From NCBI GenBank assembly GCA_948567375.1, contig OX419762.1, positions 4,966,001 through 5,030,000 of the forward strand: 64,000 bases of DNA, read 5' to 3'. Each line of letters starts with the position of its first letter. Within the stretch, counting starts at the first letter, position 1. The DNA comes from Lunularia cruciata (lineage: Eukaryota > Streptophyta > Marchantiopsida > Lunulariales > Lunulariaceae). The translations under genes and the position numbers were made by a program. This document shows positions 10,406-36,022 of this stretch, in pieces. The notes beneath the pieces are model-generated. The model was not told the origin of the DNA. It did not search any database and saw only the letters and a list, made by a program, of their open reading frames with translations.

Positions 10406-10475
<70 letters not shown>

Positions 10476-11814: not shown

Positions 11815-11817
11815 TTT

Positions 11818-12206: not shown

Positions 12207-12214
12207 TTTATATA
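12207..12214 (-). promoter_or_regulatory. TATA box of the TPD1-like gene
   Basis: The minus strand reads CTACTATATAAACACAACG, a strong TATATAAA box. Transcription would start near 12,180, giving a leader of about 165 nt before the predicted intron donor at 12015. The pyrimidine/purine-rich leader (CGAGAGAAGAGAAA) follows directly. Confidence 0.65.
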
Positions 12215-12667
12215 GTAGTCTAGAGATGCCTGAGTCACACGCATTTTGATTTTGATTTTGAACATGAATCAATGAGGTTGGTGAGTACATGTCTGTTAGC
12301 TGAAACTAAGAAGTCTGAGGACTGACATCCTGTCCGATGGATCCGATAGGATACTTTTCGTCTATGTGCTTGTCTGCCGATAGATACGGGTGAATGTCTA
12401 ATGAAGTCCTCCAGGTACTGGCGATTTGAACAAGACTTGAACAATTTCGAATTTGAATTCATTTAAGATTCGGTGAACTGGTACAGTCGACGGAAACTGA
12501 TCACTTCTAAGGGGTCAGCATGTAGATCCATACAACTGTTGTTGACAATCCATGGTTGAATCAGAGATAAGAAGTCAACAGAGTTTCACAAAGTCACAAA
12601 GACAAGGTTAATTCATGAATATCATCTACATTACTAGATGATATCGACAGATACCTACCTATCAAAT

Positions 12668-12872
12668 AGTTGGTCACTAGCATCAAGGATATCGATGCGA
12701 TTGAATGAGTAGATATCAAGATCGTTTGTACTTCCTATCTTCTAGACAGTATCCGAAAGGTTCGTTTAATTCATCGAGTTTTGGAATTGTAGCTTTGTTA
12801 TGAATAGTTGGCCGTTAGGCTCAAAGATGTCGATGCGATTGGATGACTAGATTCTGATTCTCAAGATCATTT
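12668..12872. repeat. Diverged duplication, offset about 139 bp
   Basis: GTTGGTCACTAGCATCAAGG with a following GATGCGATTGAATGA block near 12,668-12,740 is echoed near 12,807-12,872 by a similar block with GATGCGATTGGATGA and AAGATCATTT. Clear to the eye but substantially diverged. Confidence 0.6.
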
Positions 12873-15630: not shown

Positions 15631-15962
15631 CACGTACGTATGATCTTCAGGTAAGGATCCTGTTGACGTCTTGGTGTGTTCAGCTAATGGTCTCCGTTAT
15701 GTCCCTAGACAACGGATCGTCATTATACATTGTAACTTTTTGACTAGAGTTTAGTCAACCTAGCATTTTGAGGTACACGTAGAAATTTCAGGATAGCACG
15801 TACATATGAACCAACGTAAGGATTCTAATCATGCTTGTGTGTTGAGTTCTTGGTCTGAGTTATGAATCCCGTCCATAAACAATGGATTGTCATTACACAT
15901 TGTAAATTGTTTACTCGAGTCTAGTCAAGTTGGCATTTGAGGTATACGTAGGAATTTCAAGA
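15631..15962. repeat. 166 bp tandem duplication, diverged
   Basis: Copy one (15631-15796) and copy two (15797-15962) share CACGTAC-TATGA, GTAAGGAT, the TGTGTTGAG/TGTGTTCAG block, the GTCATTA-ACATTGTAA block and the GGTA-ACGTAG-AATTTCA end in the same order. They are older than the exact duplications elsewhere in the window. Confidence 0.8.
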
Positions 15963-16919
15963 TCATTTTGGGACTGCCTTTGGGACAATCGTGCAAGGAT
16001 CGGATCGGCATCCACTAGTAATGACAATGGTGAATAATGTAGACGGCAGTGGTATATGTCAATTTTGATCAACTGAAGAGGTAGTCTGTTCGAGCATTGG
16101 TCACCCGAAGTCATTCAATTGTGGTTGTAGATAGTGCCTCCTTAGTGTAGAGACTGGTGAAAGTGATCACTTTATCGGTGAGGAGTGGAGGCCCTGTACA
16201 GAGAGGTAATGTGATGTGTGCACTACATTACGGCTTACGTACGTACTCTCCAGCATTGGTGTCTGAAGTCGCTATTTAGCCTGTCAATCGTTAAAGTAGA
16301 TGATGTTGTCACCCTAGTGTACAGGCTGGAGAATGTGTCACATGATCGGAGCGGTATGGATAGATATACGGAGATATGTAGCTTTTGTACCTTTTACTAC
16401 GCTGGACTGTCAGCTGCTTCAAGTGGTTGGTGATACTGCAGTGCCCTGTTTGAATGTTTGGTCATATGTCCTGCGAACGGAGAGAAATGCACAGAGAGTC
16501 TGTGACTAACTTTGAAGTTTACCTGTAATGGATTCGGTATCCTGTGGTGCTATCAGAGACTGACATGTATATTGCTTGATATAAACTCATCTCTGCTCTT
16601 GACACGCAGGCAGATTACAATTCAGTTCTCTTATGGATGTGTTTCGGACAACTGTTGTCGGGAATTGGCCTCGATGAAAACTTTACGCTATCAATAACAA
16701 ATTTACCAGTACGCCAACCTCCAACCTTGAGTCTAGTGGACGTGCAATAAAGCAGTAAGCATGCTTACTGATTGTACTGGAGTACTTGGGGACTATCATC
16801 GTGAACCCCTTCTGCAGTTTCATGCGGCCGAGATAGATATGTAGCACAATATCCTTTGTGCTAGATGCTGCTAATACAACAGTGAGATTTGAGTTTTGAA
16901 AATTCATTCCCTAACTGAA

Positions 16920-19124
16920 ATGGAAAATCACCGCCCTAGTCTAGGGCCTAATGTGGAAAATGTTGCAGTTACCACACGGCTGAATCCCGATCGAGTCCTG
17001 CTCTCTACCACTGATCCTCAAGCACCAGTGATTCCTGTTTCAAAGTCTCTGCTTAGCAATCATCCCCAACCTCATAAGGTTTTTCGTCCTGCAGCGTCTA
17101 CCTTATCAGCTTTTCATCACACTATGGATTCTTACCAATCATGTCTTAGCCGTGTAGGAAGATGTTCCAAATGCTACCCATCTTGTGTTTGTAACTATTC
17201 CCTTTCTTATCCAAAAACTAGTGAGGAGGCAAACTTCTCGAGTGTTTCCAGTAAACCTGCAGGAAACTCTCTCAAGTCCAATTCTGATGTTAACACCTTT
17301 GATGAGTCAAGAAGTGTGGACTCGGTAAACTTTTCAAATGATGCAATTAACTCTGCAGTTACTACCAGTTCTGCACTGGATCACCTTCATGACTCCTGGT
17401 TAGGGAAAGCTCTATCAGACTTCAGCGAAGGTGGATATAAGAGGACATATGAAAATGACGGTCTGAATCTGGATCCATGCAACAGTCACAAAATCCAGAG
17501 CCGATATTTGAAGACTAACAGTCGACGTTCGAAGAAAAGACGGATGGGTGGATCTACCACTTCTACCAGTGACACTTCATTAACTGGACAAGAATTGGAA
17601 GAATGGAAGGAAAGGATGGAATCTGCGAAGCTAACGGATCTGGCAAGCAACGATCCAAGAAAAGCCCGGAGGTAGTACTTCCCATAAGTTGGTTCAGGTG
17701 TCAAATTTTGCTTTCCAGTGATTTGCATCTGCCACGAATCAGTGCAAAAGTTCCCCTTAATTTCCATACTCGTGTTCAAGTCAACCTAATAGATTGGACG
17801 TTACCGGGTAGGACTTATGTTTGTTCACACTACTAGAACCGTGCCGAGCTATAGTATCAACTCTTGACACGTTTCCTGACTAAATACATATTCAAGTAAA
17901 GATCAATCCAAACACAATAGTACTGCTTACCCGGTACGCCTTTCTTGTCTGAATGATATGTCTTCGGCACTATAAATCCCGATACACCTTTCTTATCTGA
18001 GTAATATGTCTTATGGCAGGATATATTTAAACAGAATATATGCTGCCCAAGCTAAGGAGAGGAAGGTTAAGCGGACAGAGGATCTGGAGAGGGCATCGGA
18101 GATGTTGCAAGCATTGAACCAAAACTATGCTAATGACATTATAATCTTACAGGTGTTACTAACTGTCTCTTTCGGATCCATGAGAAAAGCTGCGATTACG
18201 TCCAAAATTTGGTTTTCTTCGTTCTTGAGTACATCGGTTTAGCTAGATATTGGTCCACGAACAGCATGATACTACATTCCTCTTTCCCGCGAGTACCTTT
18301 CACCTACTGGAGATTTTCCGATCACAGCTGAATGTTTCTATTACTTCAAGAATTCTTCTCCAAGTTTTAAGGCAGATCATGAATTCAATTCGGAGCAAGC
18401 TCGTCTCAGACTGGTGACAGTGGTGGGCTGATGTCGATGTGAACTAAATCTTCTCTGAACTTTTGGTATCCTGCCAACATTGGATCACAATCGCAAATCT
18501 TAGTTACCTTGTTCATGTCTCAATAAGAAGCTAGTATAAAATTACCTATAGGATTAATGTTTGTACATGTAGTCTTTATCCAGCTCATTTTACTGAAAGA
18601 CTGATGTTTTGGGGCTGTCTCTGCAGAATTATAACACCCAACTCCACATGGAAAATGCGGCCCTGAAGCTAAAGCTACAGATGATGGAGCAGCATGCCCT
18701 GCTTTCGGATGGTAAGTTTCACTATCCCAGATACAAATTGTAGTTTTATTTGTAAGTGGGTCTCGGATTACAGATCTGGATACTTTTCAAAGATTTCAGG
18801 CTATATCAGAAGTCGCGCACTTGCAGTTGTATACGGGTTACCGAAGTTCATCGTAGACCCTGCAGTCTTGTCTTGGTTTTCATCTTGTTTCGTTTACGCT
18901 GTTATGATTCATATACGCGTACTTTGGCACTGATGTCGTTGTCCGAACTTCCATTCTGGTAACTCTATGGCTTTCAGTGCCACTTCAGGTTCCTTGCACT
19001 TCAAACTACATTGTTGTTTCATGCAGAAATTAATGAAGCACTGCGATATGACCTACACCTATTGAGTATGACAGCTGAGAAGACATATGGACCTGGCCAT
19101 GCTCCTCCGCATGAATGCTCATGA
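16920..19124 (+). CDS. Group I-type bZIP transcription factor, four exons
   Basis: Exons 16920-17671, 18020-18152, 18627-18711 and 19027-19124 join with GT-AG introns to give about 355 residues. Residues 1-240 are Ser/Asn-rich and probably disordered, with a basic patch near 215-225 (SRRSKKRR). The bZIP starts at DPRKARR (about 245-251). Its basic region has Asn255 and Lys263 (N-x7-K, the Lys variant typical of the VIP1/RF2a-like group). The zipper follows exactly ten residues on, with heptad positions L273, L280, Y287, L294, L301, L308 and M315. The intron splitting the codon after DPRKAR matches a position I associate with this group. The start ATG at 16920 is chosen because the frame opens only eight codons upstream with no other ATG. 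The basic-region contacts are unusual (NRIYAAQAK). Role: nuclear DNA-binding regulator, by family. Confidence 0.85.
17672..18019 (+). other. Intron 1 of the bZIP gene
   Basis: Donor AG|GTAGTA and acceptor ATGGCAG|G. It splits an Arg codon in phase 2 inside the basic region; without removal the frame hits TAG at once. Confidence 0.85.
18153..18626 (+). other. Intron 2 of the bZIP gene
   Basis: Donor ACAG|GTGTTA and acceptor TCTGCAG|A, phase 0, inside the leucine zipper. Joining restores the heptad register from Leu294 to Leu301. Confidence 0.85.
18712..19026 (+). other. Intron 3 of the bZIP gene
   Basis: Donor GATG|GTAAGT and acceptor TTCATGCAG|A, phase 1. The following exon adds INEAL, LHLL and a short tail ending at TGA 19122-19124. 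Confidence 0.85.
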
Positions 19125-20640
19125 GGGCCGAGTCACTGAGAAGATAGTATGACTCTACGCTAAATTTCAGACTAGGAAGCGTCCAAGAATTCAGCGTGTG
19201 AATTTCCCCATTTCAAAGTCACACTTTCTCAGGAGATGGTACATCTGATTCTTACGGATAATGACGTCATTGCTTTATCTGTTCGACAATTGAAAGTTTC
19301 CTCGTCAAATTGCAGACCAGAGTGATCAGGACATAAGATTGGATGTCCATGGGTGATAAAACTCTAGATTTGTGCATACCGTTTCGTAGAAACCTGTTCT
19401 ATCCATGACCCTTCTTGAAGCAAAGCTATCAGGACGTCAAATGTAATACATTCCCGGCAAGCTGGCATTCCCACTCAGAGTCTCCTTGTTGAGGCTACAC
19501 ATTTGAGGTGACTATATGTTCCTCGGCATATCGAGCAGCTTCTATGACAAGTGATATCCTGACCAGCAAGAACTGCAAAGGATAACGTCGAGGTCATCTG
19601 GCAAGCTCCAGTATACGGTTAACTCTGTTAGCAGCTCCTCTGTCGACTTCTTGTGAAATAGCAAAAGAATCCAGAATAAGGTACGCCACTGTTCCGTATC
19701 TTAGCGTCCGTGAAGCCTGGCTGCGTTCATTGTGAACCCTTGGAGATTGTGGCTTGTATGCTATCTAATCACCTCTGAATTTCAGTGCTGGTTACGATGT
19801 TCTGCATGCTGTTTCTGCTGCCATCATCATCTAGCCGAAACTCTGATGTTATCTGCTAAAAATTTCCCATCATAGTGCAATATTTGTGGTATGCGATACT
19901 GGGTATATCGCATCGCATATATATGTCATCTTATATATATCGCATCTTTTATGTCATCTTTTTCTGGATGACAAGGTAACCACTTGTGTCAAAGTAAACC
20001 AACTCTGAGGTAGCAATCGTTGTAATCCTGGTTATCGACTTGTTATGCTTAATGATGAATCAAACTCTTCCCGGAATACGGTTCCATACATCAGGAAGCT
20101 GTATGCTACATGCTTATGCCATATGTCAATAGTCCATCACAGGCATGCTTGCCTATAATACCAAATTGTGGTACAGTGATGGCAAAACTCTATGGATATA
20201 TGAGGACAGATATTTGATGGAGATCCTGTACTCATCAAATGCATATAAAGTGCAGAGCTCATTAAACGCATATGGAGTACTTGTGAAATGGCAATAAATT
20301 GATTTAAAAAGATAACCAAGATATCTGTATTTCAACATAATCAAAATATTCTCATATCGAGAAGAATGATAAATTTACCTATTTGAATGACGAGTGGCAT
20401 TTAAGTTGATAATTTGCGATTGATTCTATAGAGTAGAGTTTAGTTCATTAATCTGCAAAGCAAACCCTATGACATGTAACCTAATGTCAATTGACTTGTA
20501 TATTTAGAGTATAGTGCTAAGGTAGAATTTAGTGCAATAATTTGTTCTTGATCTTTAGGGTTTAGTTCAGACAGTTCATTCTATATAGCTCATTATTCTA
20601 TAGAGCTCATTATGCATGTCGTCAAAGTTTTGCTCCAACA
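19125..20640. other. Downstream flank of the bZIP gene, no further gene recognised
   Basis: It contains the presumed 3' UTR and anonymous DNA. Around 19,880-19,970 there are short imperfect repeats of ATATCGCAT and ATGTCATCTT. No conserved frame was seen. Confidence 0.55.
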
Positions 20641-21076
20641 TTGACAAGATTCTGCTTTGGTAACGGGCTGATGTGGTCAAGGTTCCGCTCTAGTATTGGG
20701 TTGACATCGGTCCAACTCAAAGTTGCACCACGGTTATATTGCAGGGTTGCTCCATTTTTGCCACTGATGTTGAGTTCAGTTGGACCTCGCAATGGTTCTG
20801 CCAAGGTTGCATTGTGCATTGCTTCTTTTCCACCCAAGTTAACTGCCACGGGTTTAGTTTAGTTAATTAGGTTCCATCATCCAATGCCAAGGTATCCCCG
20901 CGGTATCACCTACCACCAGGGTTGCACCGTGTCTAACGGTGAGGCATCGCCAGGGTATCATTAGGGTTCCACCATATGCAACATTGAGGTAATGCCGATA
21001 AACGCCCATGTTATGTCTGTTAGGTTCCACTAGTCTAACAACGTTGGGGTATCGCTGAGGTATTGCAGATATTGCC
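20641..21076. repeat. Degenerate ~50 bp minisatellite-like array
   Basis: From about 20,870 successive segments begin GGTTCCA or GGTTGCA and continue through a CAACGTTGAGG-like block to GGTATC-CC. Starts lie near 20,870, 20,919, 20,965 and 21,022. The preceding 200 bp has similar but weaker GGTT-GC-CCA spacing. The units are too diverged to give an exact consensus by eye. Confidence 0.6.
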
Positions 21077-21228
21077 GAGGTGTTTCCATGAATGAATGGA
21101 GATCCAAACCCATGAATCAATGGAAATGAACATGAAGTCACAAGGAAACAAGGAGGTGTTTCCATGAATGAATAGAAATCCAAACCCATGAATCAATGGA
21201 AATGAACATGGAGTCACAAGGAAACAAG
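21077..21228. repeat. 76 bp tandem duplication
   Basis: Two copies (21077-21152, 21153-21228) starting GAGGTGTTTCCATGAATGAA, with three single-base differences. Confidence 0.95.
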
Positions 21229-21234
21229 GCAAGT

Positions 21235-21666
21235 GAAGATGAAGTCACAAAAGTACACTGATTGAAAGCAAAGAACTCAAAGAAGAAAGTGAATAAAGAA
21301 CTCAAAGAAGAAAGTGAGTATATGTATATGCAATATAAGTGTGAATGATGCTCAAATATAAATGGGCAAGGATGCAAAAGAAATGAGGATGAGTACTCCT
21401 ATACATGAAGTGTTCTGCTATACAAATGTACTAAGACATGGGAGTGGACTGAAGATGAAGTCACAAAAGTACACTGATTGAAAGCAAAGAACTCAAAGAA
21501 GAAAGTGAATAAAGAACTCAAAGAAGAAAGTGAGTATATGTATATGCAATATAAGTGTGAATGATGCTCAAATATAAATGGGCAAGGATGCAAAAGAAAT
21601 GAGGATGAGTACTCCTATACATGAAGTGTTCTGCTATACAAATGTACTAAGACATGGGAGTGGACT
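21235..21666. repeat. Exact 216 bp tandem duplication
   Basis: Copies 21235-21450 and 21451-21666 look identical. Inside each is a further 24 bp duplication (AAAGAACTCAAAGAAGAAAG repeated). The absence of differences implies a recent event, or an assembly artefact. Confidence 0.95.
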
Positions 21667-21786
21667 GAATAACATGTGGAGGTGTTGTGTTCTTGTTCTT
21701 AATGTCCATGGCTTCACCTATAACAAAGGCCTTGAGTGGGAAGGTGCTCTAGTCTGACATGCATCAATGTGCCTAATGAGGGGTCT

Positions 21787-23620
21787 CTAAATATACATTG
21801 GACTATATCTCCAAAGAAGATCACACTCTCCATCGTGTATGCATGTGGGGGAGGGTCCGTGGAATGTGGCAGCTAAACCCTCAAAAGGGTCCACACTATA
21901 CTCCGTAAGCCAGTCCAAAGTCCACTCCTCAATAAGGAACTCAATAGTTGAATACGAGTTGGCTCTAAATCTATCTAAGGGAGCACTCAAGGGGTATGAT
22001 GAGGAGGAGTGATCTGATGAACTAGAGTGGAAAGGAGTAAAGGATTGTGGATGGATAGCACCATGGGAATGGTTCATACAATATGGTAAGAAAGCAGTAT
22101 TTACTATCAAAATATTGTAATGGTAAACCTTGTGCAATAAATACTCTATAGGATCTATGGATATAATCTCTATACTTGTCCTTATATCTGTCCATGTCAT
22201 CAGACACATCCATGAGATGAGCACCAGTTTGTACACTTATTGGATAGTAAAACATGACCACACATATCCCTCAAGAGATGTTGGAAATCCTATCGGGTGT
22301 TATTAGTCCACAATATAACCTCAAACTTAGACACACCAAAATCCATGAACTCTCAAACCCTAAGGCATGATACATCTAAAAGTGGTCCTCATTCTATACA
22401 AGGTCCATCTGAATTACTCTACCAACAAGGATCCTTGGCCAGAGAGCTTACAACTATCCCATATAACATCAACCAAGCAACCAATATCCAAGAGTAAAAT
22501 CTTCCTCCTCCTCTCATGAGCATAAACAAAGTGAGGAGTAAACTCTTGAGTCAAGCTAATCTGCTCTTGCATCATAGAAAGTCTAAAAATATTGCCAATG
22601 AGTGCCATCCTCCTCTCCTCTAACTAATCTATATTTGTACAAGTGTGGGTAAAATGAGGTGGAGGTGCAAGATCATCTAAGATGCAAGGTCTACAAATAA
22701 TTATGTCCATATCAGTGGTATCCACACTAGGCTATCTTCCATATAACCAAGGCTTAGTCTGTGTTGCCTCAACTTGTGTCTTTGTCTCACTAGCATGAGC
22801 AACAAATTAAGTGATACTTGCTAGCCTATTGGTCTGAGTCTCCTCCCTAATCATATCCAAACTCTTCATCTGAGTCCCCTTATAATTGTATCCAAAATCT
22901 CTATCTGAGTGTGCTCATGCATGGCAAGCATTATGGTGATGACCCCAAAGGGTACTCTCTATGGAACTGCCTCACCTGATCTGAGTCCCACTCTAAGTCA
23001 CTCCTCACATTGGCTAACACCACTCTAGTCCTTTCCACCTCAGTCTGAGTACTTTCCAACTCAACCACTAACTCTCTATAGTAAGAGTCATGTTAGGTCC
23101 TATAAGCCACCTTCATCAATGCTTTCTCCACTAATAGAAAATCCCATGGCAATGCTCTCCCATGTTGCTCATACTCTCCTCTCACAAATGCCAAAAAGAA
23201 ATCCTCTTTGCTCAATATCTCTCTCTCCTCATTAAATTACCAATACAAAGCTCTCTCTCCTCCATGTCTCTAATAGTTGACTCTCTCTCTCTCTTTGAAA
23301 TTGGACATCCTAGCATTCACATTGATGGGATTGTCTCTCAATGATCCAAAACTATGAACAATAGTCTCTGGAAGCTAAATATGATCACCCAATGGAGGAA
23401 CTAGGGGCACCTCAACCTCAGTCCAATGTACCTCACTCTCATGCTGCCCACTTGTGTCTAATGGAAAGGATGTACATGGATCATCTGCAACCAAAACTGG
23501 CTCCAAGTCCTCTACATGATCAATATGGACACCTAGATGAGGACCTATGCACAAAGAATCAATTCATATCAAATTTAATGAAGCACATACATCATCATAG
23601 ATAATTTTCATGTGTATATA
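21787..23620 (-). pseudogene. Element A: coding remnant downstream of the PHD finger
   Basis: After the PHD finger the minus strand keeps protein-like coding potential with scattered stops. Between about 23,300 and 22,900 it reads a helix-rich stretch (FFLAFVRGEYEQHGRALPWD, then a Glu/Arg-rich coiled-coil-like run). At 22,236-21,787 there is a Ser-rich then acidic segment ending in a stop. I do not recognise the family. A similar Glu/Arg-rich remnant lies at 33,050-33,741. It may be a third open frame or a long C-terminal extension of pol. A splice-acceptor-like TTTGTGCATAG near 23,550 raises the possibility of a spliced product. Confidence 0.45.
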
Positions 23621-23872
23621 CATTGCTATACAACATACATCGTTGTCAACATCATACACTATAGACACATAACTCACATATAAGTCATACATAGATTCTG
23701 AAGTGCCACAATTGCCCCCCTAGCTGGCGGTTAGGTCCCTCTAACTCCAAATAGCTATCTACTCCAAGCATATGGTATACCCAATGATGGGTAAAGATCA
23801 GGAGGCTAGGTGCTATCGAGCCCCATCGTTAGTCCCTGGTCTGCACTCTATACCATATAAAAGATGAACTAG

Positions 23873-24187
23873 CTATAGGTCAAGTACATCTAGGACATAA
23901 CTATTGTCCTTGAGGAACCACACGTGAAGGGAGGAGTCATACATGCCATATGCCATATGCCATCCTCTCAAACAACTATCACACACTAACATAGTAGTAG
24001 CTCCACCAGAAGAGCCACATAACATACACCTCAAGCCTCCCCGTATAAGTGCCAAGCTTGGATCCATAGTACCATCAATGTTTGGGAGGTGGCATGGTTC
24101 ACAATTGCACACATGATCCTTCCAATTAACACTATCATGCCCTTCCAACATAAGGATTCCAGATGGCAAAACCTCATGCACTCTCAA
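23873..24187 (-). pseudogene. Element A: PHD-type zinc finger after the integrase
   Basis: The 104-residue frame contains Cys54-x2-Cys57, Cys69-x2-Cys72 and His77 in the run CMLCGSS...LVCDSCLRGWHM, the first five zinc ligands of a PHD finger (C4HC3). The sixth ligand position is Tyr80 instead of Cys, and the terminal W-x-C-x2-C is reduced to Trp90, so this copy is decayed. A preceding cysteine pair (HVCNCEPCHLPN) may bind another metal ion. PHD fingers commonly read histone tails; in a retrotransposon an integration-targeting role parallel to a chromodomain is an inference. Confidence 0.7.
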
Positions 24188-24199
24188 GATAGTACAACT

Positions 24200-25150
24200 T
24201 GTAGAAACATCAAGTATTGTTGGTGTTGTCTACTATAGATATACATAGTCACCTAGATGAAATCAATAGATCAAGGGTCTATAACCTCCTCCTTGAATAG
24301 TAGCATAATGTAACGTATCCCTATGTTGAGCAATCACTTAGTTCTCAAAGGCCATTGACATCACTCTTTGAAAGATCTCTACCTGTTGAGAACATCCACT
24401 CACCATACATTTGGATCATCCAAGTCCAAGACTACAATAGCATCTCAATGAATAACTATATGTAAATCTGGATCTCATCCATAGAGTAGAAAGTAAGGAG
24501 AGAAGGATGCTAAGGAGACTTGCCGGTTGAACCGATAGCCCATGGCCAACCAAGGTAATTGGAGATCCCAATCTCTCAAGTGTCCTCTCTGCAAACCAGA
24601 CTTTTGCAACCCTCTCTTCATCATTTGAACCACTCTCTCTGCTAAGCCATCTGCCTTAGGGTGATCTCAAGAGGTAGTATGATGATCAATCAAAGCATTT
24701 TCACACAAGACCTAAAACTCTCCCAAGAACTTTATACACTGATCAGTTAAAACCTCAATTGGTGCACCAAAATGACTAAGAACCTTATCTAAGAACAAGT
24801 AAGCCGTCTCTTCATTGGACTTTTTAAGAAGTGCTACCAACTCAATCCACTTGGAAAAGTGCTCCACATCACCAAAATGTACTGATAATATCTCATAGTC
24901 AACGGTAAAGGTCTAGCAAAGTGCAAATTCCAGCAGTAACCCAATCCCATGATCAATAATGGGTGCAACTGTGGCATATGAGCATTAAATGATGCTTTAA
25001 CTCAGTCACAAACCACACATCTGGCAACAAATTTTTATACATTGATTTGCATACCGCACCACCAATAATGACTCTGGAGTAAGCTATATGTATGCTTTAC
25101 TAAAAAATGTCCTAACTCCTCATGAGCATGATAGACCAATTGTAGTCTTT
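24200..25150 (-). pseudogene. Element A: integrase
   Basis: Translation of the minus strand gives the HHCC zinc-binding region near 25,130-25,010 (YHAHEELGHF followed by ARCVVC). The catalytic core follows, with a VLTDQ-IKFLGEF block near 24,720 and a HPKADGLAERVVQ block near 24,640 carrying the Glu of the DDE triad. The flanking GLQ-GHLRDWDLQLPWLAMGYR run is typical of this class. Stops of the Gln-to-TAG and Trp-to-TGA kind interrupt it. It is followed without a gap by the PHD region. Confidence 0.75.
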
Positions 25151-25449
25151 AAGATGGAAGTGGTATAACTCTCACTCTACCATCCTCCCATACATGCAAA
25201 AGATGTTTGCCCTCCAATCTAAACCTTCTGGCTTGTTGAAGAACACAATCTCTCTCCTCTGCCCAAATTGTGCCACCCATAACACCAATGCAAAGGTAGT
25301 CCATCATTAAGATATCATCATGAATGTCTTGTTGAACTATACCAATATCTTCACTCTTTGGATCTTTGACCTCAATCACTCCTCTTGTATGCACTAAGAG
25401 AGATACTACCAAAGTCTTAGAAATATACACAGAAAGGTAGATGCACGCC

Positions 25450-26223
25450 AACCTAGCACCATCTCCTCATTTGAGTCACCATGCCAACATGCTCCAATAT
25501 GATCTATTGGTTGGGACATGGGTTTCTACTCAACCCATCTGTATCACGGTTCACCACTCTATGTCTATGAATAACCGTGAAATCATACTCTTATAAAATC
25601 AAAGCCCATCGTGCAAGCTTCCTTGAAAGCCTATCGAACTCCATCAACCACTTTAGTGGATGCTGATCAGTGATGAGAGTAAAGGGGTTACCAAATAGGT
25701 AACATAAAAAATGTGCTACTACTCAAACTGCTGCCAAGCGCTCTCACTCATATGAACTATACTTTGCTTTCGCTGAATTGTTGGAGCAACTAGCATAGGC
25801 CACCACAAACTCCTTCCACTCATCATCATGTTGGGTGACCACTACTCCAAGCTCCAACACACTTTAATCAATGTGAACCTAAAATGGTCGTCCTCTAATT
25901 GGTCTCCTCAAAATAGGAGCAGATGTCAACCTCTCCTTGAGCTCTACAAAAGCTCTCTCTTGCTCATCTCCACAACAACACTCCCGTGTTAGCTTGGTCA
26001 GCTTTGTCAAGGCCTTGGCAATGGCACTAAATCCTCGAACATAGCGGTGATAGAAGTTCCCCAACCCCAAGAATGCTTGCAGTTTGCTATAGGTCAAGGA
26101 ATACGTGCAATAGCCTCCATCTTGGTATGTTGAACACCAATCCTCCGGGGTAGATGTTGTGACCCAAATACTCAACCTACTCATGGAAGAATCTACACTT
26201 CCTAAGTTGTAACTTGAGTCCAT
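25450..26223 (-). pseudogene. Element A: connection domain and RNase H
   Basis: LQAFLGLGNFYHRYVRGFS at about 26,130-26,070 is the conserved segment after the reverse transcriptase thumb. It is followed by LT-APIL, and further down LITDQHPLKWLMEF-RLSRKLARW near 25,660-25,600, the RNase H end of Ty3/gypsy pol. Several frames are broken. Confidence 0.78.
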
Positions 26224-26289
26224 GAGATCTCAGCCTCTCAAACACCTCCAGCAAATGTCTCTCATGTTCCTCCACCGTAGTGTTATAGA

Positions 26290-26760
26290 CAAAATGTCAT
26301 CAATATAGCACCGAGCAAAATCCAATCTAACTAGGACCTTTTCCATGATCCTTTGGAACTCAGCAAGAGTGTTCTTTGGTAAGTGTTCTTTGTTCTTTCA
26401 AATGGTAAGAACTTCCACTAATATAACATATCCTTGCCATGCAGATCAATAGCCCAAAATGTTATCTTGGATGTATCTTCCTCTATGATCAGCAATTGAT
26501 GATATCTTGCTTGAAGATCCAAAGTATTGAAGACCTTTGCATGCCCAATTTCATTAAAGATCTCCTTTGGTGTAGGCAAGGCATACCAATCAGCCCTAGT
26601 ATGTTGGTTGATAGGACGGTAATCTCCACACATCTGCCTATTTGTGTAGTTTCTATGCATATCCTTCTTGGTTGGCATCACTGTAGCTGATGCATACTCT
26701 CCATGTGAAATCTCTACCAAACTGGCTTCAAAAAGGTCACTACTCTTGCTTTAAATCAAT
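26290..26760 (-). pseudogene. Element A: reverse transcriptase
   Basis: The fingers/palm segment reads CGDYRPINQHT, then LPTPKEIFNEIGHAKVFNTL and LDLQARYHQL. Downstream in another frame is the catalytic CYIDDIL box near 26,310. This is the Ty3/gypsy arrangement. The frame shift between the two halves shows that it is inactive. Confidence 0.82.
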
Positions 26761-27278
26761 GCTTGCTCCATGTCACTATATTGATAAAGATATCAAAAAA
26801 CTGGTGTATTGCTAATTAGCTCAATCTGTATACCAATTCCCTTCAGAGCACCCAAATCCTTCATATTAAAGGCAAGAGAACTTTTGTAGCTCCTCAAGAA
26901 CCTCCAAACTCTCTTTCTTTCTGCTCTTGTAAGCTAAGGTCCAAGATCTGGATCCCAAGTATCCTTTGTAAATGTTATAAGAGTGGAAGATGTACTTATT
27001 GGCAGCTACATTGGACCCTTGGGAGCAGTAGTGTCATGCTTCCAACCACTAGAGGTCTCAACCTCTATGTGAAAAACTCCCTCCACTTTGGCTGCAAGCT
27101 CCACACGTCCTCTAGTTCCATCCCAAGTAGACCAAGGATGTAATCCAAGTAGACCACGCTCACCTAGATGGACTCCAAGTAGACCACTCTCCCTTGTAGC
27201 CATTGGTTGTGTCCCAATAATACCTTGCCCACTCGGTCCATCACCCCCAGCATGTGCTTGAATTGTCTTGATAGGCAT

Positions 27279-28340
27279 CCAAGTCAAACAACTCAGATCT
27301 ATAGCCTGACCTAGCACTTGATGCTTGGATGCCTCTGACACTATTAGAACAACGGTAATATTGGTGCAAAAACCCATCATCCACTTTCTCTCATTGGCGT
27401 TGGGCTCCACCAACTACTATAATTGTGAGTCCCAAACCAATCTAAGACCTCCCTCTAAAAAAGCATGAGAGCTTGGGAAACTCATACGTGTGAGAAAAGC
27501 AGCTCTAGGTTGTCCAACTAGGTTCACCATTCCCATATTTGACCTATCAGCCACTACAACCATCTGAGATTGACGCCCAACATCCAAGATATCAACAACG
27601 ATGTGGTCTAGTCACTGAATCCCGTCATAAGTGCATTGTAGAACCTCTCTAGATAAGAGGTTTGTCCACCAAAGACAAAGATGATGAGCCCGTGATCCCA
27701 CTCTGGTTACATCTAACAATATGGCAGGTTCCATCCAAGAATGGACTTGATGTGTACTTGCTGCCACTCTAGTGTGAAAATCACCCATCAAAGGGATATT
27801 CTCCAAAATGTAAGCTAAAGAAACAGACTAATGAACGTGGAGATGTTGTAATATTTATAACATCTCCCAAAACACACCAAAATGTGGATCCTAAAGATCC
27901 AAACCTTGGCCAGCACATGTATGTCCCTAACATGGCCATCCAGAAATCACCAAATGAATAGGCTTATATCTCTTCAGATCATGCATCCCCTTTAAGGAAA
28001 TGTCTGCTAGTAAGGCCTTTTGGTAACCCTTGATTGCTGACATTAATAATAACTCAGGATATCGATAAGCCAAGTGTGCCACATGATGTAGAGACACTTG
28101 CCTAGCAGTCTCATCTCTCTCTACATACAAGTACCTCTATACTTGTATACCCACCTATAGGACCGTAGCTAGTTTGGTGCTAATCCCACCAAACAACTCT
28201 AATAGACATACTCCCTCTATTGGATATTGCCAAGCAATGAATGTGGTATCCAAAGGTGTCAAGGTAATCAACCCTGGAGACTCATCCTCATGTTGGTCTC
28301 TTGGTGGTATAAAGGCTCTACTCCAAGCCTGTTGCACCAA
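27279..28340 (-). pseudogene. Element A: C5-cytosine DNA methyltransferase domain (DNMT3-like)
   Basis: Reading the minus strand in one main frame, the C5-methyltransferase motifs occur in canonical order. Motif I (GVCLLELFGGIST) is near 28,220-28,180. A motif II-like YVERDETAR follows near 28,120. Motif IV (IHLVISGWPC) lies near 27,960-27,930, with the catalytic-type Cys at 27930-27932 followed by a stop where Gln is usual. The motif VI Glu-Asn (ILENIP) is near 27,800. The motif VIII-like RVGSRAHHLCLWWTN is near 27,690. The motif IX/X region (MMGF, later HQVLGQAIDL) is near 27,380-27,290. The Arg-Ala-His...Trp-x-Asn spacing and the ...LGQA end recall DNMT3/DRM-type enzymes. The domain spans about 320 codons, the usual size. 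At least six stops make this copy inactive. It lies between protease and reverse transcriptase, clearly inside the element. Confidence 0.8.
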
Positions 28341-28441
28341 CTAATTTGCATGTTGCTACAATGACTCCTTTGAACTCCACAATGGAACATCCAAGGTAGA
28401 TGGAACAATCCCACTTGAACAATCCCAATCCAAGTGATCTC

Positions 28442-29074
28442 CTATGGTACTAGAATATCCTCTATATGGGCGTTCCCCTCCAATAAGTCACCAGACCAAG
28501 TAACAACACCACTAAAAGCTGAAATTGATGTTGCCATGGTCTCGAACTGTAGTGAGCCAAGATTACCACTACTAAAGCATACTAGTAGGCAACATACTTG
28601 TCCCTCACCAGACTGCCAACCTGGTCTATAGGAGGTTATCTCCTCCCAATAGTCAATATTGAAACCCATGAAGTATAACACTCCTCTCCCAACTAACACA
28701 TCATACGACTCAACTATGGTCATAATGGCATGAAATCTCATCACAGAGTTATTAGTCAGATGACCGGGCTAAATCTGAACAACTAGCTCTCCACATGTGA
28801 TGTACTGTGTAGAACCACCACCTAGAGATGTCTAGATCTAGAATGGACACCTCTCCACATTGGTCTTCTGTATCTCCAAACTGACAACTACAACCTTCTC
28901 CAACATAAGAGGTTGTGCACAAGAGTCAAGTAAGACCCCTTGTGGTATATAAACCTTCCTTGAAAGCCCCACCAAACCAAAAATCCCCTTTTGGTTATCC
29001 AACAAGACAACCCCAAGTGTAAACCATGCTTGCTCAAAGGCCGGTCTAAGTGGTAACTCCTCCAATCTAGCCAC
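28442..29074 (-). pseudogene. Element A: aspartic protease region
   Basis: A frame at 29,074-28,838 contains VYIPQGVLLDSCAQPLML, a retropepsin active site with DSG changed to DSC. The next frame (28,744-28,442) reads YDVLVGRGVLYFMGFNIDYW, a typical C-terminal part of this protease class. The two lie in the order expected upstream of the methyltransferase. The Gly-to-Cys change would abolish activity if real in the source DNA. Confidence 0.7.
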
Positions 29075-29689
29075 TACTGCCTACCATGAACCATTGGTCA
29101 TTGAGCGGATCCCATACTCCTCAACCATGTCAACTCCACTATCAACCACCTATGCTCTAGAAGTAAGAACCACATCATCCCTACTCTCACAAAGCGTGGC
29201 ATCCAACTAAAACATTGGGGTTGGATCAACTGCCAATGTAAGCATGTCACTGGCTGAAAACACAAGGCAATACATAATCAGCTTATGCGCCTCCCAACAT
29301 CATGCTAGACTCAGTTTGTGTAGTAGTAGGTGGCTGACTATTAGGTAGTCCATCATGCACCTCATCACCACCTACCACACTTGCACTAGGATATCTAGAA
29401 GCCATGAATGATGTCTATAGGGCTTCAAAGAGTGTAAAAGACTAGAGAAGTCTGACCTATCTCCCAACCTCTCCTCATTATGGATCCAACTCTATTGATG
29501 CATCCACCTATGCTGCTCTGCACATGAAGTCCAAAGCATCTCTATTACCAATATATGAGGTGGAAGCCTCAGCATCCAAATCTGATTTGCTTTGAGCAAT
29601 AGCCATACTAGCCAATCTCTGCTCCAACTACTCAATTCAAATAGCCATAGCTATATCAAAAGTAAAGGAAAGTACTGCACCCCTACTAG

Positions 29690-31041
29690 GTGTGCATCCT
29701 CTACCACCACCTCATCCTCCATGAATTGGAGCTCCTCTACTACCTGCCATAGCAACCCTACCACTCCGTAACTCCAAGTGTAGGTCAAAGCATCGGTCAC
29801 TAGAGTGACCATATCTATGACAATACTCACACTATCTTTAAGCTAGTTGTGATGCACTAGAAGTATCAGGTCCGTTGCCTTGAGTACACTCTTTCCTATG
29901 GTGAGGTCCACCACAAGTCCAACAAGCAACACCACTACTCATTGGCTACTGCTGACCCAAAAATGAAGGTAAGGGTCTAGCTCCACTAGGCCCTCCACTT
30001 GCTCTATAGGATATGGGCTGTCCACCTTGTCCTCAAAAACCTACTGGGTGTGGTGCACTTTGTTGAACTCTAGAAGAAGTACAATTGTGGATGAGGTCTC
30101 CCTACCAAATCTATATATCACTACTCTCTCCTCCACCATGTTGAGCTCAATATGCTCAACCAAACCAAAGACCATTGCCAAAGTGGGCAAAGTAGCTTGT
30201 AACAACATAGTATCACAAACTCTACATTGCAACTCCTTGTCCAATATCCCATACCAAAATCAGACTGCCTGAGCCTCAATAACTCCTTGAGTGAAACTAA
30301 TTAGCCGTCTCATGTGAGTGTACACCTTGCATAGGCTCTCTCTAACCTTCCTCTGGAACTCTTGCAAGCTCCTCAACTTGTCAATCCATACTCCTTGGTA
30401 GTTTTGCCTCAAACACTGGAAGAACTTCACCATGGGTTAAACCTCAATACTACACCATCTCTTGTAGTGGTACCTCCATTTGTAGTAGCATTATCTCCAA
30501 CTAGTGCACCTCCACTAGCTCCACCAATGCTACTCAAGCTAGAACACGTGGGTACAACCAATCTACCTCTAGCAACCAAGCCTAAAGTGATGGAGACATA
30601 GTTTGGAGACCAATACTATCTCCATAACTCAATCTCCTCCAAGTAAGCTCTCATGGTATTGTCCATTGGTGGACCTTCCAAGTGCTGAAATAATCCCTTC
30701 CATGCCATGAAAGGTATGAACAAAGTCAAGTTCCGTATTTGTTGCAAATCACATCAACTATCAAACTCTTGGATGAAGTCATCTAACTCAATGGTACACA
30801 TTGTACCAGAGTAATTCCTAGGGCTTTTGGAGGCCCCATAAATCTTGTCCATGTTCCACAATAATAGTGCGGACATGCCAAGTGCACTCTCAATTGAATC
30901 AGCTCCTATGTCAAACTCCAACTTAGAGTCAATCGTCTCCCTCACTAGGACTTGAGATACAAATTGATATGGAGCACTACTTTGAGTAAACCTACTGCAT
31001 ATTGCAAGGATATCTCCTCTAGAACCCCCAAAGAACTCCAT
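29690..31041 (-). pseudogene. Element A: gag with two CCHC knuckles
   Basis: The likely gag ATG is at 31041 (MEFFGGSRGD...). The first 96 codons are open, then frames alternate. A capsid-like segment (ILDKELQCRVCDTMLLQ) lies near 30,240-30,190. At 29,925-29,815 two zinc knuckles occur: CWTCGGPHHRKEC and CEYCHRYGHSSDRC, the second with perfect C-x2-C-x4-H-x4-C spacing. Two stops separate them. Gag would package the element RNA. Confidence 0.75.
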
Positions 31042-31333
31042 GGTGACAAAGTAACCACCAACCACCAACCGCAAGTACCCACCAAGAACCAACACCACCA
31101 AGTACAAACACCAATTGAGCACTACCAATTGCCAATACCAATGGAACATTACCCAATAATGTAATTCTAACTAAGACAACTACACTAGGGGAAAGGGCAA
31201 CCCATAACCTACCATCACAACATGTACTCTCACGGTCTGCAGGTCATCAGTGCCTACCTCACCAGAGAGAAACAAAGGTAGTCTGATTGGTCATCATTCT
31301 AGTCTCACCACCAAGAGCACACCATAGCACCAA

Positions 31334-32771
31334 TGCTCTAAATTTAGGGTAGCTCACACACAAACATGAAGCAAAGAATGGAGGGGATCCAATCACAAGA
31401 AATCTAAAAAAAAATCCTCCATATCATCAAGCAACACAAGATTGACTCTACCACCATTTGGCATTTGACATAATATGAGTTCCTATCTATGTCCTAAGCT
31501 ACCAAGATCACCAAGAATGGAATCAAACTGCCTTTCCTAGCCAAAACTATAAATGTATAAATAATAGTGGGCCAATCACTTGGACAACTAGTGAGGGTGG
31601 ATTAGTTTGCTAGAGCACCAATCTAGGAACCAAAGATTTAGGGGTCAAACCCTATTGTGCACAATCTAGCAACATGGGCAGATTTTGCCAAACAATGACC
31701 AAGATCTACTCTAAACTAGCTAGCCTCATGCCCACAAGTTGGCTTGTTGGCCCTTCTAGGCCTCATAGCCTCTCATAGTCCATAGCCCTATGCCTTGAAG
31801 CCTTTAAATGCCAAATGAAGCATTTCTTCTTGCCACTTTGAACCCTCTCCAAATTTGCAAAAACCCTCCAACTTTAGCCAAAGATCTACTATCTTGAAAC
31901 TCCTCCAAATCTGGCCAAAATCTAACATAAACTTTAGTAAAAATCTGACATAAATCCTAAAGTTAGCTGACCACCAAATCCTCCGTTAACTCTCCTCTTG
32001 GGCCAAATTGAAATGATAGGTTTTTCCAAATCAAAAATTTATGAAGATACGTTCCCAACTCTACCTTCAATTTCACTTTCTGAGTCCAACTCGCAACACA
32101 TTGGTCATGCTTTCATCTCTTGAGCTCAAAATCACAACCATTGCTCAAAAATTACTTTTCTTTGCTCAAAATTTGGCCAGCGCTTCCGCACACCATCTAC
32201 CTTATTGCTAAATTTACATCAATCAATGAGCTTCAACACACCAAGGAAAACCTAAACTTTGATCGAGCTACCAACGATCCACCAAGTTTGGAGATACCAC
32301 TAACACTCATAATTCCTACACTTGATTTCTCCTTGACCTCCCTTCTTTGATATAATCAGTTTGTTTACACCACTCAAATCAACTCAACACAAATCTATAA
32401 ACTGCCAACAACTGTGCACTAATTACAATCAAACCACACCCATTCTAGCTAAGAGAATCCAAGTGACGCTTGCCAGCCTCTATCCACCATAGCCAAGAAC
32501 TTGAACGCTCAATCTCAAAGAAGTGAGCTCTCTAGAGCTGCACTTTGAAAGTATACCCTTGGACTTAAGTTAGGTCTGAAACCCTAACGGTCCCATTGAT
32601 GGCACATCCAATGGTATGAACATTGCAAAGTGACAGTGGGCCCCACCATGAGGTCAGTACCCTAAACATAAAATCTGACCGTTGGAAAGTAGTCTATGAG
32701 TGATTGCTAAAATACCTCTAACTTCTATCAATGCAACTCCAATGTCTAAGCAATCTAGATGTGACACTACA
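31334..32771 (-). repeat. Candidate 5' LTR of element A
   Basis: On the minus strand the segment starts TGTAGTGTCACATC and ends TTTAGAGCA, followed after one base by TGGTGCTATGG, a possible primer-binding site. The gag ATG is about 290 bp further on. With no second copy in the window this remains a position-based guess. Confidence 0.4.
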
Positions 32772-32959
32772 AATGGCATGACATAACACACCAAGTTGTG
32801 TGAAGTTGAATATTCAGATAATGGAGTCACATGCATGGAATACATTTGTATACATATGTAGTGAAAAGTTGAACATAACAAGACATTGGAAGTTTTAGAA
32901 GACAAGTTTATCAAGACAAGCAAAAGTGGAAGTTTTAAGACAATAAGTTATGTTGGACA

Positions 32960-33003
32960 TTTGGAACAAGCAAGTCAAGTCAAGTCAAGTCAAGTCATGT
33001 CAT
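32960..33003. repeat. (CAAGT)n pentanucleotide repeat
   Basis: About five consecutive CAAGT units followed by a degenerate CATGTCAT tail. Confidence 0.9.
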
Positions 33004-33049
33004 AAGTGCACCAAGTCAAGTGAAAGTGACATAAACCTTTATTGAATAA

Positions 33050-33741
33050 AAAAGAATCATTATAAATGAGAAAAAAAATTAATTTTTTGGAATGAAATTC
33101 AAAAGCTCCTCACTCACACTCATCTTCATCCTTGCTAAGGCTAGGGCTTGCCCCATAAACCCCATTGCTAGTGTCCTTGTAATGCACCTCATCTTTTGGA
33201 GTAAACCCACACTCCATGAGTAGATGGGTGAGGAATTGCCCTACATGGGTCACCTTAAACCTTCTCCATCAAGTTGATGAAGTTGCTCATGCAAGAATGC
33301 CAACTCTATGCTCATTAGTTGCAACATCAACTCAGCCCAATCATAATCCTCACTTGATCTCTCTAGCTCTACCCTCGATCTCTCCACCTTGGCCTTCACT
33401 ATCAATGCAAGATGCTCATGTACTACCTTTGGCCTCCTAATGGGGATAAGAAGAGCACCTATCATCTAGAAGAATGGTCTAAAAGCCGGATATACACACT
33501 ACCAAGTTGAATACCATCTAGCAATTTGGTCTCTAATTGGGAACCAATCTTTTTGCACCCAATGATAAAGCACTATCCTCTTCCTACCACTCCCAACTAG
33601 CAAAGCAAATACATCTCTTATAACTTGAAGAATCAGCTTGAACAATCTACCTTTGATCGTACCCATTTGAGTGTCTATGTTCCAAGTGTGAGAAAATTTG
33701 AAACATGTGCGCTTTTGCAAAACATGCCACACATACAACAC
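33050..33741 (-). pseudogene. Second fragment resembling the post-pol coding remnant
   Basis: On the minus strand two open stretches (33,741-33,499 and 33,465-33,250) read in sequence. The second has a Glu/Arg/Leu-rich coiled-coil run (KAKVERSRVELERSSEDYDW, then LMLQL and HEQLHQLDGEG). I do not recognise the family. The style resembles the coding remnant at 21,787-23,620, suggesting the 3' end of another element of the same kind immediately upstream of element A. Confidence 0.4.
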
Positions 33742-34075
33742 AAAGCAACAAAAACAAAGTTAGAAATATAGTTTGGTGTTAAGTTGACCATGTTTGAAAG
33801 TTGAGCATGAGCTAACACTGAATAAATGTGTTGGGGGAATACAATTTGGTGTCAAGTTGAGCATGTCAATGCAAAATAAAAAGAGCTAAACTCCAAACAA
33901 ATTTGTCCCAACACAAAGTAGAGTAAGAAATCCATTGAAAGAGTAGAGTTGAGCATGTACTCAAGTTGTGTACAGCAAGTTAGTTGTGTACAAAGATAGA
34001 AAGATTGAATTCACATGAATCTTGAATAGGTTTTGCTATAGGTCAATTGCACAAACCAAATTCCGCCATGGGTCC

Positions 34076-34481
34076 TTTAAAAGACCGAGACCAAGGAGAG
34101 AAATAGGAGAATGGAAACCCACATTGGGACACTTGAATGTGGGAAAACTCTGAATGCCTAGCATGAGCTTTGGTATTTACAGGTAGCATACAAGGCTCTT
34201 GAGAAGCTTCTCAAGAATTTTCCTCAAGCCACTTTCTTAGAGTGCAAGCCAAGTTAACTATGAAGCTTCTCAAGAAGCTTCCTTCTAGAAGTCGCATATT
34301 TGGCGTACAAGCTAAGCTAGTTAGAAGCTTCTAGAAGCTACTTACTTGAGGTGCAAGCTAAGCTAGCTGAGAAGCTTCCCAAGAAGCTTCCTATATACTT
34401 CCGGAATATTCTAGGCTAATTTGTCTTATGTGTTACTTTGTAAGCCCGACTAACTTCTTCGCTAAACTCCATATTGTTACA
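34076..34481 (-). repeat. Element B 3' LTR (left)
   Basis: The element-sense strand starts TGTAACAATATGG at 34481 and ends at the TTTTAAA equivalent at 34076. It is 406 bp long. It contains several GAAGCTTC/TTCTAGAA palindromes, including a perfect heat-shock element at 34323-34337. The TATA box position is mutated to TGTAAATA. Confidence 0.92.
34323..34337. promoter_or_regulatory. Three-unit heat-shock element in the left LTR
   Basis: AGAAGCTTCTAGAAG is a perfect nGAAnnTTCnnGAAn array, the consensus site for heat-shock factor trimers. The sequence match is exact; responsiveness is inferred. Confidence 0.6.
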
Positions 34482-36022
34482 TATTCCCCCGCCGCTAGTT
34501 GGTGATGTCCTTGTCGCCATTGAAGCTTTGAATTCTTGGATGGCCGTATGTGCATTCTGGAGGTGAGAAAGAGGTTCCCATGTGGCATCATGAAGGGGAT
34601 ACCCTTTCCAAAGGACCTTGTACTCCGTATGTTGGCAATGGCCTTGATGAATATGGCAACACACAAGGATACGATCAAATTTGTACTCCTCATGATCATT
34701 GAAAGGGACATGAAGAGGAGGAGGTTGGACTCAAGAGGAAAAGGAAGAGGGGTTAGGAATAAAAGGTTTCAATTTGGAAACATGAAAGACAGGATAGATA
34801 AGCATGTGACAAGGCAAGGCAAGTCGATAAGCAATAAGAAAGACAATTTGGGTGATATCAAAGGGTCCAATCCAATTAGGGGCAAGTTTACAAACTTGGG
34901 TATCAAGTGGGAGAGGGAGGTTACTAGAAGATAGCATGACTTTATCACCAACTTCAAAGGTGAGATCACAACAATGGTGGTCCGCATATTGTTTTTGGCA
35001 ATTTTTGAGCAACAAGGACGTGAGACTTGGCTTGTTGGAGGGATTGGGACATAATGGTCAAGAATGTGGAAGTATGAGGAACCTAAGATGGAGGGAGGAG
35101 CAAGAAGAGAATCTAGAACAAGTGGATCTTGGATAAAATTGAGAAAGAAAGGAGAAAATCTGGTGCTTGCCTGTTTGGAATTGTTGTAGACAAATTCTGC
35201 AGCTGCAAGACATTCATCCCAATTGGTATGGTGGACATTGACAAAGGCACACAACACATCCTCCCATATACAATTTTCATGTTCAATTTGTCTATCAATT
35301 TGAGGATGATAGGTCGTGGAAAAGCAAGCTTGGTGCCAAGTATTTGGAAGAGTGCTTGCCAAAACTTCCTGGTAAATCAAGGATCACGGTTGGAGATGAG
35401 TACAAGTGGCATCCCATGATGCTTGAAGACATTGTCAAAGTAAATTTGCGCTAAGGTTGGAGCATCCACCGTATCACAAGTTGGTGCCAAGTGGATTTGC
35501 TTACTAAGCTTATCCACAAACACCACGATTACGGTGTATCCTTGTTTTGTCTTTGGCAAGGATGTGATGAGATCCAAGCTTACATGCTCCTAGCAAGTGG
35601 ATGGAACGGCAAGTGGTTGAAGGAGTCCACTCGGCTTCTGGTTGCTAGCATTGTTACGTTGGTAGCTCTCACACACTTGGACAAATTCTCAAACATCTTG
35701 TTCATGTTGGCCACCACCATTGATGTTTGAGGGTACCCAAGGTCTTGTCTACACCCATGTGACCAACAATGGGTAAATCATGGGCTTCTTGAAGGCGCAC
35801 AAGTTGAAGATCACCTTTAGTTGGAACATAGATCCGGTCCTCATGGAATAAAAGGCATTCCTTGATGGAGAAGGTGTTTTTCTCCTTATCGCATGTTGTA
35901 AGGCAACCATGTACCATTTGGAAGAAGAGATCTTGGTGTAGAGCTGACTGAAACTCATTTTGGACCTTGGAGTCAACTGACACCGTTGAAATTGCCACTG
36001 TGATGAGAGGAAGAGACTTCAA
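34416..36022 (-). pseudogene. Element B: integrase with C-terminal chromodomain
   Basis: From 36,022 downward the frame gives HDLPIVGHMGVDKTL, the HHCC lead-in. It then gives VIVVFVDKLSKQIHLAPT (35,577-35,377, catalytic core), ISNRDP for the second Asp block, and TTYHPQIDRQIEHEN with the Glu block at about 35,315. GPFDITQ...HVSKLKPF is the GPY/F-type region. The chromodomain follows at about 34,620-34,500 as EYKVLWKGYPLHDATWEP. Chromodomains bind methylated histone tails and steer integration into heterochromatin in this clade. Frame changes near 34,720, 35,100 and 35,370 and several stops inactivate it. Confidence 0.87.
34482..34496 (-). promoter_or_regulatory. Element B polypurine tract
   Basis: The minus strand reads AGCGGCGGGGGAATA directly before the 3' LTR start TGTAACA, as expected for the plus-strand primer of reverse transcription. 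Confidence 0.75.

Follow-up and report, generated by a model that had tools for sequence, protein, structure and literature searches.

A DNMT3-type cytosine methyltransferase domain in a Ty3/gypsy retrotransposon family of liverworts and Sphagnum

What does a cytosine methyltransferase do inside a retrotransposon of a liverwort? The question was raised by a DNA stretch of 64,000 nucleotides from Lunularia cruciata (contig OX419762.1, positions 4,966,001 to 5,030,000), which is called the window in the following and to which all coordinates refer unless another sequence is named. An initial annotation had placed a C5-methyltransferase of DNMT3/DRM type within a Ty3/gypsy element at this locus and had suggested that the enzyme was once a product of the ancestral element itself. 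Cytosine methylation is one of the main plant defences against transposons. It is therefore puzzling that an element should carry a methyltransferase of the de novo type and keep it more conserved than its own protease.

The methyltransferase domain and the element around it

The candidate DNMT3-type C5-cytosine methyltransferase domain (DNMT) was located at 27276..28340 on the minus strand. It occupies one frame, 28340-27276 (-), which has no frameshift and is interrupted by nine in-frame stops (7 TAG, 1 TAA, 1 TGA). Given these stops, the copy in the window is dead. The closest protein in the protein search was the open-frame P0001 (58% identity, 97% query coverage, E=1.1e-127), which in tblastn gave a single HSP over the same frame (359 aa, 57.9% identity, E=1.4e-128), and 32 proteins matched at E≤0.001. 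An E-value of 1e-127 with relatives ruled out chance similarity. The DNMT of an apparently complete relative, contig CADCWO010000201.1 (L005), matched 28259-27276 (-) with 40% identity (E=2e-66). No second match to the DNMT queries was obtained within the 64-kb window, despite two further gypsy remnants.

We read motif I as LELFGGIS (28202-28179), motif IV as GWPC with the Cys retained (27941-27930), motif VI as ENI (27803-27795), motif VIII as SRAHHLCLWWTN (27695-27660) and motif X as LGQAIDLS (27314-27291), all on the minus strand and with coordinates from a hand count along the translated frame. These segments correspond to the C5-methyltransferase motifs of the same numbers and were aligned with DNMT3A. 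The order I-IV-VI-VIII-X was unpermuted in the window and in 20 relatives with full cores, as the initial annotation had claimed for this strand. At 87 columns these 20 cores were at least 95% conserved, and the window had the same residue at 69 of the 87 and a stop at 2. The PC of motif IV was present in at least 19 of the 20 and the EN of motif VI in all 20. The Arg of motif VIII, found in 20/20 relatives, is lost in the window, which has Cys at this column.

The window copy alone reached 11.4 bits with the C5-methyltransferase profile PF00145, below the curated cut-off of 22, and E=0.0025 against DNMT3A. L005 scored 48.4 bits, and 8 of ten longer relatives scanned exceeded the cut-off (27.1-51.3 bits); P0025 had 19.4 bits, and P0021, in which the DNMT is partly missing, was not among the PF00145 matches. 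The profile search identified most of the relatives scanned and L005 and failed on the window copy itself, and the certainty of its identity comes from its match to these relatives, not from its own weak score. Concerning the type of enzyme, the best PDB matches were DNMT3A and DNMT3B, both by profile and by predicted fold. DNMT1 and CMT were absent from the PDB profile list and from the 50 fold matches shown, which says nothing on kinship. As judged from the PDB profile match, the predicted fold and the unpermuted motifs, the element domain is of the DNMT3 type; the DNMT3 half of the earlier assignment was upheld and DRM was rejected, the motifs being unpermuted in the window and its relatives.

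The element around the DNMT was followed by tblastn, and all parts lie on the minus strand. A Gag relic in two frames at 30089..30852 matched residues 1-260 of the Marchantia protein P0088 (61% at 30852-30505 and 65% at 30412-30089, E=7e-72). It is followed by a Gag zinc-knuckle relic with two CCHC-like boxes at 29760..29939, matching part of Marchantia P0091 (54%, E=1e-15), and by an aspartic protease relic at 28436..29104 (P0091 piece 39%, E=5e-44; L005 piece 33% at 29047-28553), in which LLDSGAQPL of the relatives has become LLDSCAQPL. Downstream of the DNMT, an in-frame TAG at 27006..27008 closes the Gag-protease-DNMT frame at the same place as in L005. Directly after it begins a relic of reverse transcriptase (RT) and RNase H, split between two frames (25519..27005; L005 piece 46% at 27005-26367 and 26376-25519). 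The integrase relic at 24403..25504, in several frames, matched the L005 piece with 46-65% identity (E=4e-95). The last relic, at 23880..24403, combines the C-terminal end of the integrase with a PHD finger; L005 matched it with 58% at 24385-23951 and the PHD piece of P0021 with 75% at 24094-23951. The finger starts at about 24034, and its last part, to about 23880, was read by eye in another frame.

The order in the window is Gag, zinc knuckle, protease, DNMT, RT-RNase H, integrase and PHD finger, with frameshifts outside the DNMT. Apart from the DNMT and the PHD finger, this is the Ty3/gypsy order of Gag, protease, RT, RNase H and integrase, found in the window by tblastn and in L005 by Pfam. 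The window element is a decayed Ty3/gypsy element with a DNMT between protease and reverse transcriptase, and the claim of a methyltransferase flanked by these two on the same strand was correct. Self-comparison of window 19000-36000 did not detect an LTR pair, and five tRNA primer-site words were absent from both L005 and the window.

Past the PHD finger, a stretch from 23210-22940 (-) to about 22000 resembles a decayed protein with one stop and is coiled-coil-like by eye. Pfam gave nothing over cut-off for two ORF-like pieces in this part, and the coding strand of L005 has no ORF of at least 100 aa in most of the corresponding part. A third frame of the element is one possible reading of this stretch, among others. 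Elsewhere in the window, Ty3/gypsy remnants without a DNMT match were seen, with RT at 42181-43428 (+) and at 37311-36032 (-). By eye, an ORF at 45145-45651 (+), which belongs to the remnant region 42181-45651, resembles a chromodomain-bearing integrase end.

The window element has lost CpG strongly (observed/expected 0.17, compared with 0.52 in window 1-20000 and 0.82 in L005) and is rich in TAG relative to CAG (229/78, compared with 325/204 in window 1-20000 and 101/151 in L005). Seven of the nine stops in the DNMT are TAG, and by eye the stops mostly lie at positions where the relatives have Gln or Arg. CpG loss and TAG excess are the C-to-T decay expected from deaminated methylated CG and CHG sites, which fits a silenced copy, whichever enzyme methylated it. 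Across the element (23900-33000, -) the coding strand is T-rich with more G than C, together with the strong CpG loss. L005 has a weaker excess of G over C, so part of the skew in the window may be original composition.

Other features of the window were noted beside the element. An ORF at 54597-55085 (-) has 86% identity to a protein of Marchantia paleacea, 71% to Calypogeia fissa and 57% to the clubmoss Diphasiastrum, which by this one gene makes a thalloid liverwort the most likely host. Host-like ORFs at 11251-11835 (-) and 16893-17675 (+) are candidates for a TPD1-like secreted peptide and a bZIP factor of plant type. Four direct copies of a repeat family, each of 300 bases, lie at 40081, 44183, 45660 and 60848 and are 88-96% identical to the reference; the family also has inverted copies at about 61627-62010 and is partly arranged in 156-base tandem units. 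At 21234-21665, a sequence of 216 bases is duplicated exactly in tandem.

Relatives of the element and the stop codon between its frames

The profile search returned 415 proteins at E≤1e-5 from 7996 scored candidates. Among the 120 listed, most were metagenome proteins, and the named relatives came from the liverworts Calypogeia fissa, Marchantia polymorpha and Riccia sorocarpa and from the mosses Sphagnum troendelagicum and S. jensenii. The DNMT-bearing family thus extends to liverworts and Sphagnum. Proteins were limited to 0.55-1.75 times the query length, and long read-through proteins could escape this search. Several M. polymorpha gene models are pieces of the element: P0021 (Mp_7g09570), P0025 (Mp_1g20900), P0062 (MARPO_0008s0049), P0074 (MARPO_0156s0026), P0088 (Mp_8g15430) and P0091 (MARPO_0007s0008). 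P0061 (943 aa) is a single open frame from the zinc knuckle through the protease to the end of the DNMT, of which the DNMT alone was over the Pfam cut-off. The relatives with open frames have the DNMT at the same place, in frame with the protease. This supported the suggestion of a methyltransferase produced by the ancestral element itself, and it seems that a family of land-plant retrotransposons brought such an enzyme along.

The DNMT core of L005 had 48-53% identity to five relatives, compared with 41-45% for the protease, 25-37% for the stretch from zinc knuckle to protease and 23-32% for the linker between protease and DNMT. The tail after the DNMT had 27-33% identity to the three relatives in which it could be measured, one of them over 11 residues only. 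Within the first frame, conservation is thus highest for the DNMT core, which speaks for selection on the domain, protein identity not being a Ka/Ks measure.

In a tree of 21 element cores, the window grouped with Marchantia, Calypogeia and other sequences in a set of eight that had full support; a set with L005 and a third set stood apart from it. The branch of the window is long (0.56), so that its placement inside the set of eight is unsure. Viral contigs gave short matches of 34-38% at four loci. An origin from bacterial plasmids was rejected, as tblastn of P0001 on plasmids yielded 4 weak partial matches (27.5-41.4% identity).

L005 has 9285 bases and is filed in a cyanobacterial genome bin; we infer that it is a eukaryotic contaminant there. 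P0097, filed in a Candidatus Obscuribacterales bin, is probably misplaced in the same way by eukaryotic contamination of public bacterial genomes. The two ends of L005 have 127 identical bases in common, by which the assembly closes on itself; this is not itself a sign of an LTR. The contig encodes Gag, protease and DNMT, one in-frame TAG, and then RT, RNase H, integrase and PHD finger. Its first frame, 3-3491, enters from 8582 across the ends and comprises zinc knuckle, protease and DNMT up to the TAG at 3489-3491. Behind the TAG, and without a change of frame, the stretch 3492-6635 encodes the domains from RT to the PHD finger. RVT_1, RT_RNaseH, Integrase_H2C2 and rve were over the Pfam cut-offs, and zinc knuckle and protease were under them. 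DIRS-type elements carry a tyrosine recombinase; L005 has a DDE integrase (Integrase_H2C2, rve), which is matched by the window, and is not of this type.

The TAG of L005 is followed by CAATCA, which fits the CARYYA context. In plant RNA viruses, UAG-CARYYA serves as the read-through signal of type I (PMC5382211). Such a fit was found for 1 of 101 TAGs on the coding strand of L005, for 1 of 89 on the other strand, as by chance, and for 6 of 2167 on both strands of the window. Behind the TAG of the window (27008-27006, -), the six bases CTGCCA differ from CARYYA at one position, so its own context gives read-through no support there.

We also surveyed where the frames of 140 relatives' proteins end. 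The motif X pattern was found in 69 and not in the other 71, many of which are fragments. Among the 69, ten ended with -IQ at 124-141 residues after motif X, four with -ATK at 108-112, two with -VFA at 92 and two with -GIT at 129. The first frame of L005 ends with -ATK, 108 residues past motif X, and the TAG of the window lies at 94. RT was also matched by only 2 of the 140 in this length-limited search (P0022 and P0025, both liverwort gene models). The recurring frame ends and the rarity of RT indicate that the DNMT belongs to the frame of Gag, whose end is conserved.

The PHD finger was over the cut-off of PF00628 (24) in L005 (44.5 bits) and P0021 (36.7 bits); in the window it is a frame-broken relic. 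The 60 of 98 PDB matches shown include UHRF1, CHD4, KDM5A/B, PHF21A and ATXR5, and also DPF3, KAT6A and PHF12. The fingers of UHRF1, CHD4, KDM5A/B, PHF21A and ATXR5 read unmodified H3K4. By analogy, our guess is that the finger of the element might be a reader of H3K4me0. An AF2 model of the integrase end with the PHD finger had a mean pLDDT of 41.7.

Proposed function and alternative explanations

The explanation that we favor, and consider somewhat probable, is a bryophyte Ty3/gypsy family with Gag, protease and DNMT3 before a stop and RT, RNase H, integrase and PHD finger behind it, in which the DNMT is made together with Gag and marks the element's own cDNA. The first frame would be the main product, giving DNMT in Gag-like amounts, and RT, integrase and PHD finger would be made by occasional read-through of the stop. 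The protease would release the DNMT inside the particle, where it would methylate cytosines de novo, probably in CG, on the new double-stranded DNA copy. Methylation before or soon after integration would let a new insertion carry the mark from the outset, and the integrase-borne PHD finger may help to pick the insertion site by reading a histone H3 tail.

This explanation is supported by the same gene order in the window, L005 and the Marchantia pieces and by the open frame of P0061. It is further supported by DNMT3A/3B as best match, by a DNMT core better conserved than the protease, and by a stop in L005 that fits a read-through signal, recurring frame ends and PHD fingers over cut-off. Self-methylation of cDNA was already discussed by de Mendoza et al. 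2018, and the Dnmt3 domains of DIRS elements, which methylated CG when placed in yeast, are a precedent for activity (PMC5890265, accessible text). Against it, the same text reports no methylation in yeast by the Gypsy-borne enzyme of Klebsormidium nitens, a result that its authors call inconclusive, and argues that elements without DNMT thrive, so that the domain is unnecessary for transposition. The stop of the window, one base off CARYYA, and the chance fit on the other strand of L005 count against the read-through part. The host, moreover, would methylate the bryophyte element anyway.

Concerning descent, the element could be a member of the charophyte KnitGypsy-Dnmt3 lineage, passed down or across to bryophytes, so that the host alone would be new. 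We regard this as a good possibility, somewhat short of probable. Both have a DNMT3 in the coding frame of a streptophyte Gypsy element, whereas PHD fingers, Marchantia and mosses are absent from the main text of PMC5890265 as far as it is accessible. Such a descent is compatible with a self-marking function.

The same anatomy could also serve a DNMT that acts outward, on host DNA, rival transposons or DNA viruses, and is kept as a benefit to element or host. Outward action is a general proposal for element-borne methylases (PMC6338049), and host benefit was discussed by de Mendoza et al. (PMC5890265; accessible text of both). The position of the DNMT inside the Gag-protease frame favors action in the particle, however, and we consider outward action unlikely. 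The domain might instead be kept for RNA methylation, for nucleic-acid binding in the particle or for shielding cDNA from deaminases, of which RNA methylation and deaminase protection were raised for other elements in the accessible text of PMC5890265. This we hold to be quite unlikely, as the PC and EN motifs of the full cores are conserved as would be expected of a working C5 enzyme, and DNMT2-like RNA enzymes fit less well in the PDB profile search (19.7-23.4 bits vs 53.1).

A host DNMT3 gene or chance insertion inside a gypsy element of the window, for which one could point to the two other gypsy remnants without DNMT match, is refuted by L005 and P0061; in L005 as in the liverwort and Sphagnum relatives, the domain sits at the corresponding position and shares a frame with the protease.

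Carried further, the self-marking explanation would mean that land plants host an old lineage of retrotransposons in which a stop-codon switch yields an excess of DNMT3 writer along with Gag, and the integrase bears a PHD reader, so that new copies are methylated in the particle and sent to chosen chromatin. We put this forward tentatively and regard it as somewhat doubtful. If true, the self-marking lineage would date back at least to the liverwort-moss split, and the charophyte case would be no isolated acquisition. The standard laboratory plant M. polymorpha has copies annotated as ordinary genes, so that it could be asked there why an element would methylate DNA. Such element-derived gene models can inflate the counts of host DNMT and PHD genes.

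Comparison with known systems

The catalytic core of the element enzyme is related to that of plant DRM (27.9 bits for tobacco, 16.9 bits for Arabidopsis DRM2). The match is confined to profile positions 470-596, which correspond to motifs I to IV, and DRM enzymes have rearranged motifs (PMC5890265, accessible text), unlike the element enzyme. Host DNMT3 proteins such as animal DNMT3A/3B, and presumably bryophyte DNMT3, differ in that no ADD or PWWP domain was found beside the element DNMT, which is fused to Gag and protease and has its PHD finger far off, after the integrase.

The initial annotation had named algal and dinoflagellate precedents for retrotransposon-borne methyltransferases, and this was borne out. 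The Symbiodinium elements SymbioDIRS-Dnmt3 and SymbioLINE-Dnmt also carry a DNMT, with CG methylation in yeast by the DIRS-borne ones; they are DIRS and LINE elements (PMC5890265, accessible text), whereas the bryophyte family is of the Gypsy type with a DDE integrase. A 2025 survey repeats streptophytes and dinoflagellates as hosts (PMC12344493), and a 2019 opinion article states that such transposons do not occur in land plants, such as tracheophytes (PMC6338049; both as far as accessible). In the open-access literature we found no report from land plants and none on a PHD finger together with a retrotransposon DNMT or on a stop that places the DNMT on the Gag side. The accessible texts of PMC10952607, PMC9516144, PMC8566409, PMC6453930, PMC8616336 and PMC9033089 do not mention the bryophyte DNMT-gypsy family.

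The closest known system was described by de Mendoza et al. 2018, who reported a DNMT3 within the Pol reading frame of LTR Gypsy elements from K. nitens, regarded its acquisition in that lineage as independent and gave Ka/Ks under 0.2 (PMC5890265, accessible text). Among the named matches (120 of 415 listed), none came from K. nitens. KnitGypsy-Dnmt3 and the bryophyte family share a DNMT3-type domain that lies within the coding frame of an intronless streptophyte Gypsy element. By its description, KnitGypsy-Dnmt3 is set apart by its charophyte alga host and by the placement of the DNMT in the Pol frame, and the accessible description includes no PHD finger, read-through stop or bryophyte copies (PMC5890265). 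A Gypsy-borne DNMT3 in a charophyte is thus already published; the bryophyte hosts, the stop-codon layout and the PHD finger are, as far as the open-access literature shows, new.
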